Source: an uncultured Rhodopila sp. (GTDB taxonomy: Bacteria; Pseudomonadota; Alphaproteobacteria; Acetobacterales; Acetobacteraceae). Taken from it: a stretch of DNA of 64,000 nucleotides. The stretch lies in contig NZ_CAJATU010000155.1 in the NCBI RefSeq assembly GCF_903944925.1, positions 1 to 64,000 on the forward strand. Direction: 5' to 3'. A program made the position numbers and the translations under genes. This document shows, piece by piece, positions 16,465 through 64,000 of this stretch. Numbering within the stretch: position 1 is the first letter of the stretch; every line of letters starts with the position of its first letter. The notes below the pieces were generated by a model. The model did not search any database. It was given only the letters and a program-made list of their open reading frames with translations, and had not been told where the DNA came from.

Positions 16465-16851
16465 CTACCCCGCGCAGGACGCCGCTCGCACGGGATAGAG
16501 GGCGACATGCCGATCATCCGTCACGAATGTGGCGTCTTCCGCGATGGCCTGGGCGATCAGCAAATGGTCGAACGGATCGCGGTGGTGCATCGGCAACGTC
16601 GCCAGCACCCGCAGATGATCGGGGCGCACGTTGATCGAAACGAACCCGGACCGATCGCAGGCACCTTCAATCTCCCGGATGTCGGCCTCCAGCTTGCCGA
16701 CACGCACTTTCACGACGATCTCCCACAGCGATACCACGCTGACCAGAACATCATTGCCGGGATCGGCGATCAGCGCCCGCGCCTGTGAGCCGATCCGGTT
16801 ATCGTCCGACAACCACCAAAGCAGGGCGTGGGTGTCGAGGAGGAGCTTCAC
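16465..16851 (-). CDS. VapC-like PIN-domain ribonuclease toxin
   Basis: The 128-residue PIN-domain protein has the acidic metal-binding set: Asp6 in LLLDTHALLWWL, Glu in SVVSLWEIVVK, Asp in RDPFDHLLIAQA and Asp in FVTDDRH. Family toxins cleave RNA and are kept silent by a co-expressed antitoxin. The start is GTG at 16851, overlapping the antitoxin stop (GTGA). The SLWEI/HHRDPFDHLLIAQA pattern places it in the common Phd-partnered VapC subgroup. Confidence 0.88.
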   Translation of the reverse strand: MKLLLDTHALLWWLSDDNRIGSQARALIADPGNDVLVSVVSLWEIVVKVRVGKLEADIREIEGACDRSGFVSINVRPDHLRVLATLPMHHRDPFDHLLIAQAIAEDATFVTDDRHVALYPVRAASCAG

Positions 16852-17114
16852 TCCCCATCGCCCTCCATCGCGGCCAGGACATCAGCCGGCAGGGTGTCGA
16901 AATCCGGCGCCATGCGAATCTTGCCGCGCAACGACCCGGGACGGCGGGGGGACCGCTGCGCTTGCGCGGGTGGCCGGAGTTCAGCAACCACTTCATCGTG
17001 CGAGGTGATCAAGAAAGAGGTCCCCTGGCGAGCCTGACGCAGAAACCCGGTCATGTTTTCCCGGAACTCCCGCACGCCGACTTTCTCCGGCAGCGGGTAA
17101 TCTTCTTTGGGCAT
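16848..17114 (-). CDS. Phd/YefM-family antitoxin
   Basis: The 88-residue protein starts with the Phd-type DNA-binding fold: KVGVREFRENMTGFLRQARQ, then FLITSHDEVVAELRPP. The C-terminal half, after a basic Pro/Arg linker, ends PDFDTLPADVLAAMEGD, which would bind and inhibit the PIN toxin. It precedes the toxin gene and overlaps it by four bases, the classic order for autoregulated type II modules. Its ATG lies 128 bp from the divergent SDR gene's start, leaving room for a shared promoter region. Confidence 0.87.
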   Translation of the reverse strand: MPKEDYPLPEKVGVREFRENMTGFLRQARQGTSFLITSHDEVVAELRPPAQAQRSPRRPGSLRGKIRMAPDFDTLPADVLAAMEGDGE

Positions 17115-18157: not shown

Positions 18158-18272
18158 GGTGTCCACAAAAGGTGACACCCGTCTTCCCATATCGGTTGTA
18201 TTCTGCAAAGTTACTACTACGTGAAACCCGTGTCATGACACCGTGTTCACGTGGAACAGAAAGGGTGACGTC

Positions 18273-19121
18273 ATGGCCGACATAATTACGCGGGTCTACG
18301 GCAGCCACGAAAAAGCCGTGGCGGCGGTTAACGAACTCAAGACATATCGCTTTGAAGACGCCGATATCACCGTCGTGTCCTACCTGGGCGGCTACAAGAC
18401 AGGGGCGAACGCGGCGACTGCCGAGTTCAATGAGATCGTCGGCGCGGTAGCGGCCGGTTTCATCCCCAAGGCCGAGGCGGCGATCTACGCGCTGAGCATT
18501 ACCCGGGGGGCGACGCTGGTCACCGTCCGCGCGCCGTTCGGCACCGCCGGCCGTGCCGCCGCCATACTCGATGGTTACGATCCGATCGAAACCGGGGTTC
18601 CGCTCAAGGAATACAAGCCTTTACGGCAGTGGGACGAGGCGGCGCCGGCATCGTTCTTCCTGGCGCTGCCGGTATTGGTGGACGACACCGCAACGCTGTC
18701 GGCCGTGCTTGGCATACCCATTCTTTTTGAGCGTGGCAGAACTGTGTTTTCTGCATTGCGCATTCCGGAAACGCTGAACGTAGCAAACCTGCTGGGTATC
18801 CCCGCGATCATCAAAGGGACTCCTGCCTTCACGGCCATGCTCGGCCTGCCGATCCTGATCGACGCGAAGGCGCGGTTGTCCTCGCTGCTGCACATCAAGC
18901 TGCTGTTGAGCGACAAGGCGTCGTTGTCGGCGTTCTGCGACATGGGCTGGCTGCGGCCGCTGGCGACACCGCTGTCCTCGGCGTTGCATATCCCGACGTT
19001 GACCAAGGGTACCACCTCGCTGTCCGGACTCGCCGGTCTGCCGACGTTGGCGGGCAACACGGTCCTGTCCTCCCTGCTTGGCATCCCGACGCTGGTGAAA
19101 AGCAGGGTCGCGCGGTCGTAG
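18273..19121 (+). CDS. Repeat protein A: YflT/GSP17M-like N-domain plus degenerate 16-residue repeats
   Basis: First of three tandem paralogues. Residues 1-105 (MADIITRVYGSHEKAVAAVN, then FEDADITVVS and GATLVTVRAPFG) resemble the general-stress YflT/GSP17M domain. Residues ~125-276 are about nine diverged copies of a 16-residue unit, for example PAFTAMLGLPILIDAK, ARLSSLLHIKLLLSDK and TPLSSALHIPTLTKGT. This copy is more hydrophobic (GIP/GLP instead of GW) than the two downstream. No signal peptide. The ATG at 18273 is chosen by alignment with the paralogues; AAAGGG lies upstream. Function unknown. Confidence 0.8.
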   Translation: MADIITRVYGSHEKAVAAVNELKTYRFEDADITVVSYLGGYKTGANAATAEFNEIVGAVAAGFIPKAEAAIYALSITRGATLVTVRAPFGTAGRAAAILDGYDPIETGVPLKEYKPLRQWDEAAPASFFLALPVLVDDTATLSAVLGIPILFERGRTVFSALRIPETLNVANLLGIPAIIKGTPAFTAMLGLPILIDAKARLSSLLHIKLLLSDKASLSAFCDMGWLRPLATPLSSALHIPTLTKGTTSLSGLAGLPTLAGNTVLSSLLGIPTLVKSRVARS

Positions 19122-19127
19122 GTGAAA

Positions 19128-19153
19128 CCGGTGACGCTTGGGCGCGTCACCGG
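19128..19153 (+). terminator. Hairpin after repeat gene A
   Basis: CCGGTGACGC pairs perfectly with GCGTCACCGG around a six-base loop, seven bases after the stop of gene A. There is no T-tract, so it may act as a transcript-end stabiliser or a weak/Rho-assisted terminator. The remaining ~200 bp before gene B contain no other feature I can support. Confidence 0.5.
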
Positions 19154-19356
19154 GCCAAGTCTCCGTCGCCGCGCCGCTTTCGATCACCCCGCCGCCGCGC
19201 CGTGTGGCGTGCCGGGGGGCCGGTGTCGTGCCGCCCTGACTCCGGCCTCCTGAGTGTCACGGATCAAATACGTCAACCAAAGTGGACATAGTGGGTTGAA
19301 GCCGCTCGGGTAATGGGTTAGCAATGTTCTGCCCCCTTTCACGGAAGTGCGGATCA

Positions 19357-20016
19357 ATGACCGTCATCACAACCCGGATATACGACACCCCTCAGAATGC
19401 GAAGGGTGCGGTAACTAAACTGAAAAGCAGCTACTTCTCCGACGACCAGATCGCCCTCGTCAGCGCGGAGGGCAAAGGCCCCGACGCCGTTGTCGCCGCG
19501 ATCACGGCGTTTGGCGTACCCGCCAGCAACGCCAAGGCCTATGCCGAGGCTGTCGGCCGTGGCGCCTCGTTCGTCGCCGTCCGCCCCGCATTCGGGAAGG
19601 CCAGCGAAGCCGCCCAGATCCTCAACAGCTTCAGCCCGACCGATGGCGACGATCTCGTCGTTGCGGACGAAGACGGCGGCTCGCTGTTTGAAGTCAGCGG
19701 CGGCCCGAAGGCAAAGCTTCTGGACGATCCGCACCCGGTGTCGACCTACTTCAAGTGGCCGCTGCTGTCCGAGGACAGGCTCGGCCTGTCCAAGAAGTTC
19801 GGTTGGTCGCTGCTCTCCGGCGACTCGTTCCCGGCCTCCAAGCTGTTCGGCTGGAAGCTGCTCTCGGACGAAGCGACACCGGCTTCCAAGGCGTTTAGCT
19901 GGAAGCTGCTGAGCGACGACCCGACGCCGCTGTCCAGCAAGTACAACTGGAAGCTGCTGATCAACGACCCGACATGGCTTTCGTCGAAGTTCGGCTGGTC
20001 GGTGCTGTCCAAGTAG
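19357..20016 (+). CDS. Repeat protein B: YflT/GSP17M-like N-domain plus six exact-period 16-residue repeats
   Basis: The 219-residue paralogue has an N-terminal domain (MTVITTRIYDTPQNAKGAVT; SFVAVRPAFGKASEAAQIL, about 1-95), a short acidic linker, then six units of exactly 16 residues from residue 126 to the end. They include LGLSKKFGWSLLSGDS, FPASKLFGWKLLSDEA, TPASKAFSWKLLSDDP and TPLSSKYNWKLLINDP. The core is xPLSSKFGWKLLSDDP. The gene ends right at the last unit. The start at 19357 matches the paralogues; an upstream in-frame ATG (19324) would add 11 unconserved residues. Soluble; function unknown. Confidence 0.85.
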   Translation: MTVITTRIYDTPQNAKGAVTKLKSSYFSDDQIALVSAEGKGPDAVVAAITAFGVPASNAKAYAEAVGRGASFVAVRPAFGKASEAAQILNSFSPTDGDDLVVADEDGGSLFEVSGGPKAKLLDDPHPVSTYFKWPLLSEDRLGLSKKFGWSLLSGDSFPASKLFGWKLLSDEATPASKAFSWKLLSDDPTPLSSKYNWKLLINDPTWLSSKFGWSVLSK

Positions 20017-20056
20017 TTGACCGTATCCGCCTGAAAGCGGATCGGGACCGGGCAAG

Positions 20057-20086
20057 AGGCGGAGCGGTGGCAATCACCCTCCGCCT
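20057..20086 (+). terminator. Hairpin after repeat gene B
   Basis: AGGCGGA pairs with TCCGCCT and, after a small asymmetric bulge, GGTG pairs with CACC. A short T-run (GTTTTG) follows about eight bases later. The rest of the 320-bp spacer to gene C shows no convincing gene; a minus-strand frame through it is Ala/Arg-rich without an SD. Confidence 0.45.
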
Positions 20087-20336
20087 CGAAGCCGTTTTGA
20101 CTGCCGCCATGGCCCGGCGCTGCTCGGCCAAAGCCAGGGCCCCGGCCGATTGTAGAATTTCCGCTTTGTGAATAACCTGCGGCCGAACAGGCACGGTTGC
20201 CGGCTCGCCACAGCGTTATCGTTTCCTCACACGCACAACCTCCGCTGCATTTCACATTCTCGCCAACACCCGGGCGCGAAATCCTGGGCCGCGTTTATAT
20301 CACGTCGGCAATTCCAGACGTGAACGGAGTGGTGCA

Positions 20337-21131
20337 ATGCCTGTGACTGTCAGCCGTATCTACGACTCCCCGGAGAAGGCCCAAACCGCCGCCAGCGAGC
20401 TGAAGAAGTACAGCTTCGCGGCCGAGCACATCAACGTCGTCACCCCGAATGGCCATGACACCGAGGCGACGGAGAGCGCCCTCACGAAGGGTGGTATTTC
20501 GGCCGCCCGCGCCAAGGTCTATGCCGAAGCCGTCGGCGGCGGAAAATCCGTCGTCACGGTGCTTCCCACTTTTGGCAAGGCCGCCAAGGCCGCGGAAATT
20601 CTCGATACCTTCGGCCCGGTCGAGACCCATATCACGGATGTTCCGGATACCGTCGAGCGCGGGCCGAAGGCGTCGCGGGGATCCTCAGGTTCCACCGACT
20701 CGGCGTCGCCGCTGTCATCGGCAGCCGGCTGGAAGGTGCTTTCGGACGATCCCACCCCGCTGTCGTCGAAGTTCGGCTGGCGGGTGCTGCTCGACAATCC
20801 CACGCCGCTGTCATCGTGGCTCGGCTGGCGGACCCTTTCTGATAGCCAGACCTCCCGAACGACTCTGAGCCACGACCCGGCGCCGCTGTCGAACCTGCTC
20901 GGCTGGAAGCTGCTGTCGGACAATCCCGCGCCGCTGTCCTCGCGGGCAGGATGGCGCATCATTGCCGATGAACCGGCGCCTTTGTCCAAGAAGTTTGGCT
21001 GGCGGGTACTGTCCGAGAATCAGACCGCTAAGGCGTCCGTACTGCGCAACCCGACACCGCTGTCCTCGGCCCTCGGCCTGCCCGTCCTATCCCAAGAGAG
21101 CTCGTCGGACGACAGATCCAAGGCGGCCTGA
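20337..21131 (+). CDS. Repeat protein C: YflT/GSP17M-like N-domain plus seven WKxLSDxPTPLSS repeats
   Basis: The 264-residue paralogue starts MPVTVSRIYDSPEKAQTAAS and keeps the domain core SVVTVLPTFGKAAKAAEIL (about 1-95). After a Ser/Gly-rich linker, residues 124-253 hold seven units: SPLSSAAGWKVLSDDP, TPLSSKFGWRVLLDNP, APLSNLLGWKLLSDNP, APLSSRAGWRIIADEP and others. The third and sixth units carry the same 10-residue insertion (about 26 residues each, both beginning near SDSQT/SENQT and ending HDP/RNP), which points to duplication of a three-unit block. SD AACGGAG precedes the ATG. Function unknown. Confidence 0.85.
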   Translation: MPVTVSRIYDSPEKAQTAASELKKYSFAAEHINVVTPNGHDTEATESALTKGGISAARAKVYAEAVGGGKSVVTVLPTFGKAAKAAEILDTFGPVETHITDVPDTVERGPKASRGSSGSTDSASPLSSAAGWKVLSDDPTPLSSKFGWRVLLDNPTPLSSWLGWRTLSDSQTSRTTLSHDPAPLSNLLGWKLLSDNPAPLSSRAGWRIIADEPAPLSKKFGWRVLSENQTAKASVLRNPTPLSSALGLPVLSQESSSDDRSKAA

Positions 21132-59913: not shown

Positions 59914-61008
59914 TTGTCCAAGGCCGCTATCGTGATTCCCCTTGAGCCGGCGACACGCTTGCTTATCCGATGTCCCCTCTGCGGCGGATTCAATCATGCC
60001 CCGCTTTACGAGCATTTTCTCAGGTGCAAACTGTGTTCGCTGGCGTTTCCCAAAATCGGGGTCGTATTGCCGCCGTTGACTGACTTTCAGATCGCCGGGT
60101 CGAAATTCCGATTTAAATCCTGGAACAACTGGTTGAGCAGATCGATCGGATACCTCCCGCTTGCTTCACGGGATGATGCTTATTTCGCGCCAACGGCCGT
60201 GCGTATGTTTGCTGCCCGAGAGAATGGTTACGCGTCGGCGGTGCGAAGCAGTGTACCGTTACTTCCAATTTTCGTGCCCTGGCGATTCGGACAGACGATC
60301 CAGTGCAACATCAATCTTCGGTCCCGCAGAGACGCAAGCGCCCCGGACCCGAGACTGACGCTTGGCGTCATCGCGGCACCCACCGCAAGGCGTGATGTCA
60401 TTGATCTATGCGCCGATTTGGCCAAGCTTGCCGGACGGGTCGTTGTTGTGCTCGATACGGTCGACGCAGCCGCAGCCGCGACGCTTGAAGAGGAACTGCG
60501 GGCCTCCCTGCGCGAAGCCGGCGATGGGCTGGTCCTGGTCGTCGGCCGCCAACTGGACGGCGATTTTGCAACTCAACGCAACCAGATCCAAGAGCGCGCT
60601 GTCACCGACTGGGTCCTGCAACTTGATTGCGACGAACGGCTGACCGACGGGACGAAAAGGCGTCTGGCAGCCATGATCGACGATGCCGAGCGCGAAGGCT
60701 GGTCAGCGGTGGGACTGACCCGGCGCAACGTTGTCGATGGCATGGTTTCGGCTCTGTATCCCGACGTCCAGTATCGTCTGTTGCGCCGATCCGTTCGATA
60801 CACCCGGGCGGTGCATGAATATCCGCTGCTGCGCCATGACCAGAAGTCGTTCGTCCACCTCGGTGCCGAGATCATCCACCGCCTGGACGGCGAACGCCTG
60901 CTGCGGCGGGAAGCGTTTTATGAGGCGATACAGGACGGAGCCGGCCGAACCGATGACACGGCCCTGCTGCGCATGCCTCTCGAAAGCGACGTCCGCCTGC
61001 CGGCTTGA
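59914..61008 (+). CDS. GT2-like glycosyltransferase with N-terminal zinc-ribbon-like segment
   Basis: No ATG fits: the frame can start at TTG 59914 or GTG 59932. The first ~45 residues hold two Cys pairs (RCPLCGGFNH; RCKLCSLAFP) spaced like a zinc ribbon. From ~150 the protein resembles a WaaE/KdtX-type GT2: RNQIQERAVTDWVLQLDCDE contains the DxD metal site, followed by YPDVQYRLLRRSVRYTRAVH and EIIHRLDGERLLRR. It is 364 residues from the TTG. An unusual domain pairing or a damaged 5' end are both possible. Confidence 0.7.
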   Translation: MSKAAIVIPLEPATRLLIRCPLCGGFNHAPLYEHFLRCKLCSLAFPKIGVVLPPLTDFQIAGSKFRFKSWNNWLSRSIGYLPLASRDDAYFAPTAVRMFAARENGYASAVRSSVPLLPIFVPWRFGQTIQCNINLRSRRDASAPDPRLTLGVIAAPTARRDVIDLCADLAKLAGRVVVVLDTVDAAAAATLEEELRASLREAGDGLVLVVGRQLDGDFATQRNQIQERAVTDWVLQLDCDERLTDGTKRRLAAMIDDAEREGWSAVGLTRRNVVDGMVSALYPDVQYRLLRRSVRYTRAVHEYPLLRHDQKSFVHLGAEIIHRLDGERLLRREAFYEAIQDGAGRTDDTALLRMPLESDVRLPA

Positions 61009-61032
61009 CGATTTTCCCGGGGTTATCGATCA

Positions 61033-61998
61033 ATGAACGCCAGCTTGCCGCTTGTGATCGCAGTCGTGCTGAACTGGAACAAGGCGGAACAGAGCGCGAA
61101 GTGCGTTTCGGCGCTCAGGTGCCAGCATTATCCAAACCTCCGCATTATCGTCGTCGACAACGGCTCGGCGGAGGGCTCCCTGGCCGCGCTGGAGGATCTG
61201 AGTATTCCATTTATTCTGTTGCGAAACAAATGTAACCTTGGGTTTGCGGGGGGTGTCAATGTTGGCATTGGCCGGGCGCTTGCGGACGGAGCGGATTACA
61301 TCTGGCTCTTGAACAACGACGCAGAGGCAGCCCCTGATGTGCTTGACAGGATGCTGCCGGTCTTGGAAGCAGACAGCACGATCGGGTTGGCCAGCCCGCT
61401 GATCCGCAACGGCGACGCTAACGATGAAATCGAGTTCTGCGGCGGATTGTGGCAGAACAACTCCTTCGATACCACGGACGATCCGCTGACTTATCTGGCC
61501 TGGGCCGGTTCGCAACCGCGACGTATTTGGCTCGTCGCCACAGCAGTACTGCTGCGCCGAAGCGCGGTCGAGAAGATTGGTTTGTTCGACGAACAACTCT
61601 TTGCTTACTGGGAAGACAATGACTATTCGGTCAGGAGCATCAAGGCGGGGTTTCGTAATGTGGTCGTCCCCGAGGCCGTGGTGCGGCATTGGTCCGGCAG
61701 GCCAAAGACGGACGCTGCTTCGAAGCCCCCGCACTATTACTATTATATGGCACGAAACGAGATTTTGTTCATTCGGAAGTATGGCAGCCTTCCCCGGACG
61801 GCGAAACCGCTCTATTGGGCCCTGATGCGTCAACTAACGCTGGCGAAGAGGTTGCACGACTATGAAGCCGGATTGGACGCGATCTTGTGCGGACTCCGGG
61901 ACGGCGCGCTTCGCCGCGGCGGCGCTTTCGGTCACGGGAAGCACGTCTGGCCAGTGGCAATCCGGCTTTTGCGGCTGTACGCGAGACCGGAACGTTAA
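61033..61998 (+). CDS. GT2-family glycosyltransferase (rhamnosyltransferase-like)
   Basis: The 321-residue GT-A protein starts VIAVVLNWNKAEQSAKCVSA and has IIVVDNGSAEGSLAAL, NLGFAGGVNVGIGRALADGA, the DxD-like WLLNNDAEAAPDV, and an acceptor-side FAYWEDNDYSVRSIKAGF with the catalytic acidic pair. Enzymes of this subgroup add rhamnose or related sugars to O-antigen/exopolysaccharide chains. It is cytoplasmic or membrane-peripheral and starts 25 bp after the previous glycosyltransferase. Confidence 0.88.
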   Translation: MNASLPLVIAVVLNWNKAEQSAKCVSALRCQHYPNLRIIVVDNGSAEGSLAALEDLSIPFILLRNKCNLGFAGGVNVGIGRALADGADYIWLLNNDAEAAPDVLDRMLPVLEADSTIGLASPLIRNGDANDEIEFCGGLWQNNSFDTTDDPLTYLAWAGSQPRRIWLVATAVLLRRSAVEKIGLFDEQLFAYWEDNDYSVRSIKAGFRNVVVPEAVVRHWSGRPKTDAASKPPHYYYYMARNEILFIRKYGSLPRTAKPLYWALMRQLTLAKRLHDYEAGLDAILCGLRDGALRRGGAFGHGKHVWPVAIRLLRLYARPER

Positions 61999-63332
61999 AC
62001 TTCGATTTCGAACGTCGGGCTGTTCGCGCAAAATTCCTTCCGCCGCCTGTTTTCCTGGAAGATTTCCAGTATCCGCGCGGTGACGTGTGCGAGGGCGGTG
62101 GGCCAGTCACGAGGCATCGTGAAAGCCGCAGCCGGGTCGTGCCCGGTCGTGATGCGGTTGCCGGCCTCGACCAGACAGGCCGCGATTTGCTTGCTGTCCG
62201 GAGGGGCGGCGATAATGTTGGACGATATCTGTTGCAGCCGATCTTTTGTTTTCGTGGCAAACGTATTGGTTATCGTGATCCCGCCACTGGCAACCATTTC
62301 CAGCGACGGGTAGGATGTATGCGGGGACAGCATCAGGCAGAGAAGAATATCCGACTCCCTGATAAGCTTCGCATATTCGGAAAAGGCCATCCACGGCGCT
62401 GGCCGAATTTGCTTGCCATTGGACAGGGTCATGACTGGCAGGTTGTCGCTGCCGAGCGACTGAAACTCCCATCCCTCGGCGAAGACCGGGTCAGCGGCGG
62501 CGAGACGCAGCGCCTCAAAGCCGAGACCTCGCATGTTACGGCCGGGTCGAGCGTAGAACAGCAGCCGGCGGGGCGCATTGCCGGGGCGCGAACCAGAATA
62601 AAAATAACGCCGATCAACCGCGGGTTCGAATACGGCGCCGCGTTCGATAAAGCCCGGATCGGCGAAACGCCCTGAGCCGCTCATACGCAGAAAATCCGCC
62701 AGCATGGATTCATTGATGATTGGACGGAATTTCAGATCATAGGTGGCGAGCGCGAGCGCATAATTGCTCGACCACGGATAGAAAGCCGGTTCGAAATCTT
62801 GAATAAGATAGATAAACTCCTTGATATTGGTCAGGCGTAAACAGTGTCCGATGCGGCTTGCGGTGGTCCAGTATGTCGCAAGGAACATGTCGTTCGAGCC
62901 GATCGGCAACGGCGCTTCCGGATCGCAGCAGTGCCCTATGCTCAAGCCTGACAACCCTTCGTCCGACCCGGTAAGGTCCCGCAGATAGCGCCGGAACCAA
63001 TCGCGGCCGGGCTCCAACTTTTCGTCCATTGCCACGAGCCTGACAGGGACGCCGCTCGCCGCGATCTGAACCGCCATGTTCACCGCAGTGTTGGGACCGC
63101 CTGTCATGACGGGCCTGACGGCTGGCAGCATCACGTTCAGCGACGGGTGTTCCGACATCGCAGGATCGATCGTGATATTCGGCAGTTCGAATCGTTCGAT
63201 GTCGAGCAATTTCCTTTCGAATTCCAAGGGATGTCTGCTGTAATAGCGATTCGAGAAGAACTGCTGCGGGTCAGTGGACAGAAGCCGGAGTTGGGCGAGG
63301 ACCTTTGCGGGAAATTTACTGAAGCCAGCCAT
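61995..63332 (-). CDS. WsaF-like glycosyltransferase
   Basis: The 445-residue protein resembles the rhamnosyltransferase WsaF: LNVMLPAVRPVMTGGPNTAV, FIYLIQDFEPAFYPWSSNYA, and RLLFYARPGRNMRGLGFEAL, plus the C-terminal ILLCLMLSPHTSYPSLEMVA, a GT4-like donor site. The ATG at 63332 with AAAAGG upstream is chosen; a TTG nine codons earlier would overlap the neighbour. It converges with the GT2 gene, overlapping by four bases at the stops. Confidence 0.8.
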   Translation of the reverse strand: MAGFSKFPAKVLAQLRLLSTDPQQFFSNRYYSRHPLEFERKLLDIERFELPNITIDPAMSEHPSLNVMLPAVRPVMTGGPNTAVNMAVQIAASGVPVRLVAMDEKLEPGRDWFRRYLRDLTGSDEGLSGLSIGHCCDPEAPLPIGSNDMFLATYWTTASRIGHCLRLTNIKEFIYLIQDFEPAFYPWSSNYALALATYDLKFRPIINESMLADFLRMSGSGRFADPGFIERGAVFEPAVDRRYFYSGSRPGNAPRRLLFYARPGRNMRGLGFEALRLAAADPVFAEGWEFQSLGSDNLPVMTLSNGKQIRPAPWMAFSEYAKLIRESDILLCLMLSPHTSYPSLEMVASGGITITNTFATKTKDRLQQISSNIIAAPPDSKQIAACLVEAGNRITTGHDPAAAFTMPRDWPTALAHVTARILEIFQENRRRKEFCANSPTFEIEV

Positions 63333-63346
63333 CGCGCAGGACCTTT

Positions 63347-64000
63347 TCAGCTTGGCCAACCCCAGTTATTGTTCATCTTGGCTTGGCGTTCGAAGTTTGA
63401 GGGATCGTCGTTGGGACCCTTCCGGATGATGATCAGATTATGCTCAAAAGCGATGCTCTTGATGGTCTTCGCAAAGGCAAGGCGGCGTGCGTCCAGTCCT
63501 TCCTTCGAAAAGAACTCATTGTGATTCAGATATTTCGCCAACTCCAGGAATTCGCCGACACAGGATTGGCGGAAGGCCGGATCGAATATCGTTGTTCCAC
63601 CAAAAAATCCGGGCCAGAACGAAGTCTGCACGTCCTCGATGATGTACAGACCACCGTTCCTGAGAACGGGGAACATCTCATAGAAGGTCAAGATCTGATG
63701 AGCACTCAGGTGCGATCCGTCGTCTATGATGATATCGAAGGGACCCATCTTCTGACATAGTAGCTGTAGATCCGTGGTCCGGCTCTGATCCGCCAGGAAG
63801 GTGGAAATTCGCCCCCGCTCAAACCTGGTTTTCGGCTCAATGTCGCTTCCGATGAACCGGCCTCGCGGAAAAAATGCCCGCCACGACAGCAGTGAGGCCC
63901 CGTTCAGGACGCCGATCTCGAGCAGGGTTACAGGTTTGTATCGGAACTGGACAAGTTCCCGGTGATACGTTGCGCCATACTGATGATCGCCTACGGCCTG
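63347..64000 (-). CDS. Class I SAM-dependent methyltransferase (start beyond the window)
   Basis: The frame stays open to the window edge, so the N-terminus is missing. The visible 217 residues show the SAM-binding motif VTLLEIGVLNGASLLSWRAF, an acidic residue in FIGSDIEP, and DIIIDDGSHLSAHQIL with LRNGGLYIIEDVQTSFWPGF. These are typical of small O-methyltransferases in sugar/macrolide and surface-glycan clusters. Start codon and full length unknown. Upstream of the WsaF-like gene in the same direction. Confidence 0.85.
   Translation of the reverse strand, partial: QAVGDHQYGATYHRELVQFRYKPVTLLEIGVLNGASLLSWRAFFPRGRFIGSDIEPKTRFERGRISTFLADQSRTTDLQLLCQKMGPFDIIIDDGSHLSAHQILTFYEMFPVLRNGGLYIIEDVQTSFWPGFFGGTTIFDPAFRQSCVGEFLELAKYLNHNEFFSKEGLDARRLAFAKTIKSIAFEHNLIIIRKGPNDDPSNFERQAKMNNNWGWPS

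Follow-up and report, generated by a model that had tools for sequence, protein, structure and literature searches.

Proteins with 16-residue repeats encoded beside light-harvesting 2 genes in Alpha- and Gammaproteobacteria: a possible accessory subunit of LH2

Results

We analysed a 64,000-nucleotide stretch of DNA from an uncultured Rhodopila sp. (NCBI RefSeq assembly GCF_903944925.1, contig NZ_CAJATU010000155.1, positions 1 to 64,000; hereafter the window), in which three adjacent genes on the plus strand, A, B and C, encode proteins that join a common N-terminal domain (N-domain) to a tail of 16-residue repeats (Table 1). Proteins of this kind are labelled REP here. This arrangement had been described in an original prediction made from the letters of the window, and its open reading frames (ORFs) were found in place, flanked by a short-chain dehydrogenase gene and an opposite-strand ppx/ppk pair (neighbour names assigned by eye). 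Two starts, 19324 and 19357, are possible for B, with homology beginning at 19357. The nearest named relatives of the window's genome are Rhodopila metagenome-assembled genomes (MAGs) and Rhodopila globiformis DSM 161. The association of REP with light-harvesting complex 2 (LH2) is well supported.

Table 1 Features of the window around the three REP genes.
Feature	Positions	Strand	Description	Evidence
REP gene A	18273..19121	+	282 aa; N-domain and about 8 units, GIPxL type	ORF list, unit matrix
N-domain of A	18273..18587	+	predicted beta-alpha-beta-alpha-alpha-beta-alpha	AlphaFold block means pLDDT 72-93, family HMM
16-residue repeat tail of A	18642..19103	+		unit matrix
REP gene B	19357..20016	+	219 aa; N-domain and 6 contiguous 16-residue units	ORF list, unit matrix, AlphaFold
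Repeat tail of B	19732..20013	+	five steps, each exactly 16	unit matrix
REP gene C	20337..21131	+	264 aa; N-domain and 7 units, two 10-residue insertions	ORF list, unit matrix
Repeat tail of C	20706..21104	+		unit matrix
Putative PpsR-like site TGTCCACAAAAGGTGACA	18160..18177	+	upstream of A	weak evidence
Putative PpsR-like site CGTCAACCAAAGTGGACA	19271..19288	+	upstream of B; 2 mismatches	weak evidence
aa, residues; pLDDT, predicted local distance difference test; HMM, hidden Markov model.

At a lag of 16 residues, the tails of A, B and C contained 36, 44 and 40 identities against shuffle means of 13.7, 8.3 and 12.5 (z = 6.8, 13.4 and 8.6, respectively), and for none of the three did any of 2000 shuffles score as high. 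Tandem Repeats Finder reported 48-nt units in B and C and none in A. The exact 16-residue period that had been predicted applies strictly to B, whose six units run without insertion by the unit matrix, whereas the steps between the units of A (16, 28, 16, 16, 32, 16, 15) and C (16, 16, 26, 16, 16, 26) include longer or shorter ones. Purifying selection acts on the whole REP genes (Ka/Ks, the ratio of non-synonymous to synonymous substitution rates, 0.07-0.18 for orthologues in two relatives), and the repeat tails are constrained as well (Ka/Ks 0.13-0.17 in G000-G024, the one pair tested separately).

The unit consensus, derived from 156 units of 30 proteins, was [T/A]-P-[L/F]-S-[S]-x-[L/F]-G-[W/L/I/M]-[P/K/R]-[L/V/T]-L-[S]-[D]-[D/N]-[P], with Pro 2 and Ser 4 inflated because the seeds required both. 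With unit positions assigned by a matrix built from 52 units, 120 of 184 steps were exactly 16 in a set of 41 proteins that leaves out the truncated REP of G320, and 15 steps were lengthened from 16 to 26 by a 10-residue insertion; the consensus set agreed with this placement (88 of 138 steps in 30 proteins). The REP of G375 has a single clear unit. In G427 and G604 (L115:6939-7625 and L112:8009-8731), the tail consists partly of another short repeat of the HIFGEPKLxS type, which has a shorter step and keeps G-x-P-x-L. No Pfam or NCBIfam family matched the tails of A, B, C and further members searched above cut-off, which bears out the prediction of a repeat that has no named family. Three sequence searches of solved structures gave no significant match (best E 0.86, 0.58 and 0.13), and an open-access literature search of titles and abstract beginnings found no account of such a gene.

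The N-domain (~100 residues) is present in every one of the 41 proteins of the family that were examined (13 of these served to train its hidden Markov model, HMM), so the predicted constancy of this domain among homologues was confirmed. Its predicted resemblance to YflT (PF11181; general stress protein 17M) was recovered at E ≤1 in nine of 12 members, with a best E of 9.7e-5; A, B and C themselves (E 0.03-0.12, 13.3-15.2 bits) do not reach the Pfam gathering cut-off of 26.2 bits, and YflT differs in having no repeat tail. AlphaFold modelled the N-domain confidently, with an extra last strand in B, and PII, ACT and CutA ferredoxin-like folds were among the best Foldseek matches to B, none of them below E 0.03. 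The tails of A and B were given no fold (pLDDT about 30-45), which disfavours the beta-solenoid or string of amphipathic hairpins proposed earlier, although low confidence from such shallow alignments (12 sequences for A, 14 for B) still allows one. Tails that are both disordered and unconserved between species had been named as a refuting outcome; the tails are predicted to be unstructured yet are constrained, which would suit a ribbon that becomes ordered on binding its partner.

A second Pfam family, DUF6301 (PF19818), matched inside the tails of B (E 0.33) and C (E 0.13) and in three of 12 REP members (best E 0.013), far below its cut-off of 27.2 bits and over 23-37 residues only. PucD and PucE of Rhodobacter capsulatus are small proteins encoded by additional puc operon gene(s).

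The neighbourhood of REP was mapped by tblastn in 30 genomes, of which 15 belong to the family of the window, 10 to other Alphaproteobacteria and five to Gammaproteobacteria (only 12.8 kb around REP were mapped in G007, G024 and G029). The first lead was a homologue following a PucC-type gene in G008 and G036. REP lies within 0.5 kb of the LH2 alpha/beta genes (pucBA) or pucC in 26 of the 30 genomes, and these linked loci span the Acetobacteraceae, other alphaproteobacterial families and the Gammaproteobacteria. The 11 linked loci of the window's family read pucB-pucA-pucC-REP where the contig allows (it is cut in G107 and G008), and the remaining ones are mostly pucB-pucA-REP-pucC-deformylase (def); in Granulosicoccus, REP is located between LH2 alpha and pucC. 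Variants have a second pucBA between REP and pucC (G604, G427), REP upstream of pucBA (G317, G770), REP divergent from pucBA (G378, G375) or about 2.3 kb between REP and pucC (G344). The contig of G320 starts inside REP, where only pucC, def and, elsewhere, pufLM were seen. Pfam searches of one puc-REP locus (L111) confirmed PUCC, LHC and deformylase.

Two further traits of these loci were observed. Of the 26 puc-linked loci, 13 (L111:6167-6676, PF01327, and 12 others) have a peptide deformylase gene downstream of pucC. A dedicated deformylase would make sense there because LH2 alpha of Rbl. acidophilus is described as binding B800 via its carboxylated N-terminal methionine (PMC12817894); an open-access literature search found no paper on a deformylase-puc link. 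In six acetobacteraceal loci (L061, L062, L064, L066, L067, L083), LH2 alpha has a C-terminal extension of about 60-80 residues.

Co-occurrence was scored with an LH2-alpha profile (A2) built from REP-linked alphas, matches with E below 1e-17 being counted as strong. Weaker alpha matches were dropped in the family (3/21), class (1/13) and Chromatiales-order (11/13) draws; those of the last had E values of 4e-5 to 8e-4 and may be LH1 or other LH2 types. In the genus draw, LH2 occurred in five of 33 genomes and REP in the same five, the other 28 having neither. The family draw of 249 Acetobacteraceae contained strong LH2 alpha in 18 genomes and pufLM over cut-off in 80. Among the matches listed, all 11 REP genomes fell within these 18 and none among the other 231, where divergent REP could be missed since profile A1 alone was used (Fisher 7e-15, which, like the other Fisher values, overstates independence because the genomes are related). 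Among pufLM-positive genomes, again for the matches listed, REP was found in 10 of 15 with LH2 and 0 of 65 without it; the eleventh, G036, has pucBAC-REP but no pufLM match. A further 74 of the 249 genomes gave A1 matches of another kind only; those listed lie in profile positions 1-136 (the N-domain part), and two proteins of this kind that were read (G000 C122, G024 C158) have glycine-rich inserts.

The class draw of 385 genomes contained strong LH2 in 12, and the profile found REP in eight of these. A further match, in G562, was rejected as spurious, since its frame is of low complexity and runs opposite a longer ORF. Reading the four remaining LH2-positive loci yielded three more REP genes (G375, G427, G617); as these were found only via their puc loci, which biases the cross-table, they were left out of the Fisher value (8/12; 4e-14, or 4e-13 when G562 is counted against the association). 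In the order to which the Chromatiales MAG belongs, two of 147 genomes had strong LH2 alpha and these two were also the ones with REP, a result that concerns that LH2 type only. In each of the four Gammaproteobacteria with REP that were tested (G317-G320), pufLM is present, and LH2 alpha was seen in 29 of the 30 REP genomes, the exception being G320.

Since the genomes are related, a better argument than the Fisher values is that REP is spread over many families and two classes. Because REP shares genomes with LH2 across the draws, it goes with a particular LH2 type and not with phototrophy as such. Alphas with REP carried Gly at W-3 in 22 of 25 cases against two of five without (Fisher 0.04) and Cys/Thr at W+1 in 21 of 25 against one of five (0.01). 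These were the two features tried, G008 (of 26 with REP) and G276 (of six without) were unread by the pattern and left out, and the difference is suggestive only, as related genomes are not independent.

The stress-protection or scaffold role originally proposed has been replaced by this link to LH2, drawn from genomic context and co-occurrence. A general stress-type or regulatory protein that chance has kept near puc genes would fit the weak YflT similarity, the Foldseek matches of the N-domain and the unlinked position of REP in the window, but REP is confined to LH2-positive genomes in the draws examined, even where it is unlinked, and we regard this explanation, already disfavoured, as very improbable.

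Several REP paralogues occur in some genomes: in addition to the three of the window, there are two in G770, and in G115 pucC is followed by several REP modules in tandem, two of them fused in a single ORF. In a tree of N-domains, A and its orthologues grouped with the puc-linked genes of G008 and G036 (support 88/92, below the mark for strong support), and B and C paired weakly (82/56). Based on the former grouping, A is probably the original puc gene, which moved, with B and C as further paralogues.

The sequence upstream of the window genes was searched for TGTCAN8TGACA, which we take to be the PpsR consensus. TGTCCACAAAAGGTGACA is the only match with at most one mismatch in the 64 kb, and the TGTN12ACA match at its place is kept in G007 and G024, not in G029; the window has seven matches to TGTN12ACA against 5.25 expected. 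Chance alone would give about 14 matches like CGTCAACCAAAGTGGACA, with two mismatches, in a window of this kind, and 12 were seen. PpsR control of A is only weakly indicated, by a single good site that is not conserved in R. globiformis. A perfect palindrome, GTGTCATGACAC, lies upstream of A at 18230-18241, with one base differing in G024. On the minus strand, 16465-17114, judged by eye, resembles a PIN-type toxin paired with a Phd-like antitoxin, and L020 has a different PIN-like ORF at the equivalent place. The last two 2-kb blocks of the window (60001-64000) have G+C contents of 0.59 and 0.57, the others lying at 0.62-0.71, and are perhaps a mobile or foreign stretch.

Discussion

LH2 ranks among the best-studied antenna complexes; three components of it are known, alpha, beta and gamma, the last in a single genus. 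We lean towards the view that REP is an accessory subunit of LH2, with an extended tail that places one repeat unit per alpha-beta pair. The model for this, and the nearest counterpart known, is LH2-gamma of Rhodopseudomonas palustris, described as an extended ribbon on the cytoplasmic side of LH2 that runs around six of the nine alpha-beta pairs and holds six additional bacteriochlorophylls via serines in its repeats (PMC9618040); in the account of its authors, gamma is reported only in Rhodopseudomonas (PMC9618040).

Gamma and REP are alike in several respects. Both are tandem repeats with a 16-residue step: the gamma motif as printed has 15 letters (PMC9618040), and in the PDB chain (7zcu chain S) the repeat step is exactly 16, as are all steps in B. 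Both accompany LH2 of the nine-membered type with related alpha chains. The LH2 alphas of REP loci are closest to chains of 7ze8 and 7zcu, two of the four PDB entries containing gamma, and a nine-membered ring is suggested for REP-linked LH2 because these chains are each listed with nine copies. The gamma gene, RPA1495 (PMC9618040), is three locus numbers from pucAe, RPA1492 (PMC5069747), and thus by number near a pucBA pair, as REP is beside puc genes. In the best register, the G-x-P-hydrophobic core is aligned as well. The same step, the same type of partner and the similar gene neighbourhood therefore point to the same geometry. For R. globiformis, LH2 exists as a protein, since chromatophores were first treated to remove excess LH2 in the work on its light-harvesting 1-reaction centre complex (PMC9640540).

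In the arrangement that we envisage, the N-terminal ferredoxin-like domain would stay on the cytoplasmic face, and the tail, seemingly without a fold of its own, would wrap the LH2 ring as an extended ribbon along its cytoplasmic-side rim, as gamma does, and every 16-residue unit would touch a single alpha-beta pair. Protein or lipid would be in contact with the conserved L/F, G, W/L and L, and water with the linker of acidic and prolyl residues. More speculatively, each unit might carry an extra bacteriochlorophyll via its conserved serine, as in gamma. In the window's clade, three ribbon variants (about eight, six and seven units) could decorate the rings.

Several results weigh against this reading. 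REP is unlinked to puc in four of the 30 genomes, all of the window's Rhodopila clade (G000, G007, G024, G029): in the window's genome, two LH2 pucBA pairs and pucC, with no REP adjoining, lie ~9 kb from pufLM on contig C42, and in the other three, LH2 alpha is on contigs other than that of REP. LH2 does not need REP, because five of the 18 LH2-positive genomes of the family draw, and G407 of the class draw, have puc genes without REP adjoining (two more, G191 and G237, cannot be judged as their contigs end at the puc genes). Low AlphaFold confidence from so few sequences is weak evidence for anything. Gamma has 97 residues and six repeats without the N-domain that all REP examined carry. Its Mg-binding serine directly precedes Gly, whereas the corresponding position 7 of REP is mostly L, F, A, M or I; the serines of REP, at positions 4 and 5, stand three to four positions earlier, and some units have no serine. 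Homology between the two was sought in three ways, none giving a significant result: the REP HMM did not match gamma, column permutation of the REP unit against gamma gave p 0.07, and a gamma HMM run over 711 sequences ranked a REP (the G427 protein) first at E 0.12 and a non-REP second at 0.29. REP is accordingly not a member of the gamma family, given the lack of homology, the different placement of the serine and the conserved extra N-domain.

Direct adjacency to pucC in 19 of the 26 linked loci (read by eye from the map) would also fit an assembly factor that acts with PucC, its repeats holding new LH2 alpha/beta or PucC on the cytoplasmic face and REP being absent from the finished complex. 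PucC is described as an LH2 assembly factor forming oligomers (PMC4949548), and multivalent unstructured tails suit a holdase. We consider such a role rather unlikely: the same six LH2-positive genomes have pucC among their puc genes without REP adjoining, and the 16-residue match with gamma would be a coincidence. Mimicry of the N-terminal segment of PucC or of the N-terminus of LH2 alpha by the units did not stand out and was rejected, as a 16-residue matrix run over 318 non-repeat neighbour proteins ranked the best PucC (L079, recognised by eye) eighth and the best LH2 alpha ninth, both via other segments.

The multivalency of the tails, the paralogues and tandem modules, and the 10-residue insertions between groups of units in C could instead suit a cytoplasmic linker, with units on different rings, that bridges LH2 rings or joins LH2 to core complexes and so shapes the photosynthetic membrane. 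This seems improbable to us, as a rigid 16-residue step is needless for bridging separate rings.

Returning to the accessory subunit, we put forward tentatively, as a possibility somewhat on the doubtful side, that REP is a second, apparently unrelated and much wider family (Alpha- and Gammaproteobacteria) in which the alpha-beta spacing has set the same 16-residue register, with a cytoplasmic domain added and bacteriochlorophylls added to nine-membered rings; the three variants of the Rhodopila globiformis clade might then give rings of differing composition. A third puc gene common to two classes and without a model in the searched copies of Pfam and NCBIfam would mean, if true, that a subunit has gone unnoticed in many LH2 complexes. 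The 16-residue step common to gamma and REP would be a geometric rule of one unit per alpha-beta pair, which would bear on the tuning of B800 absorption, ring stability and packing.

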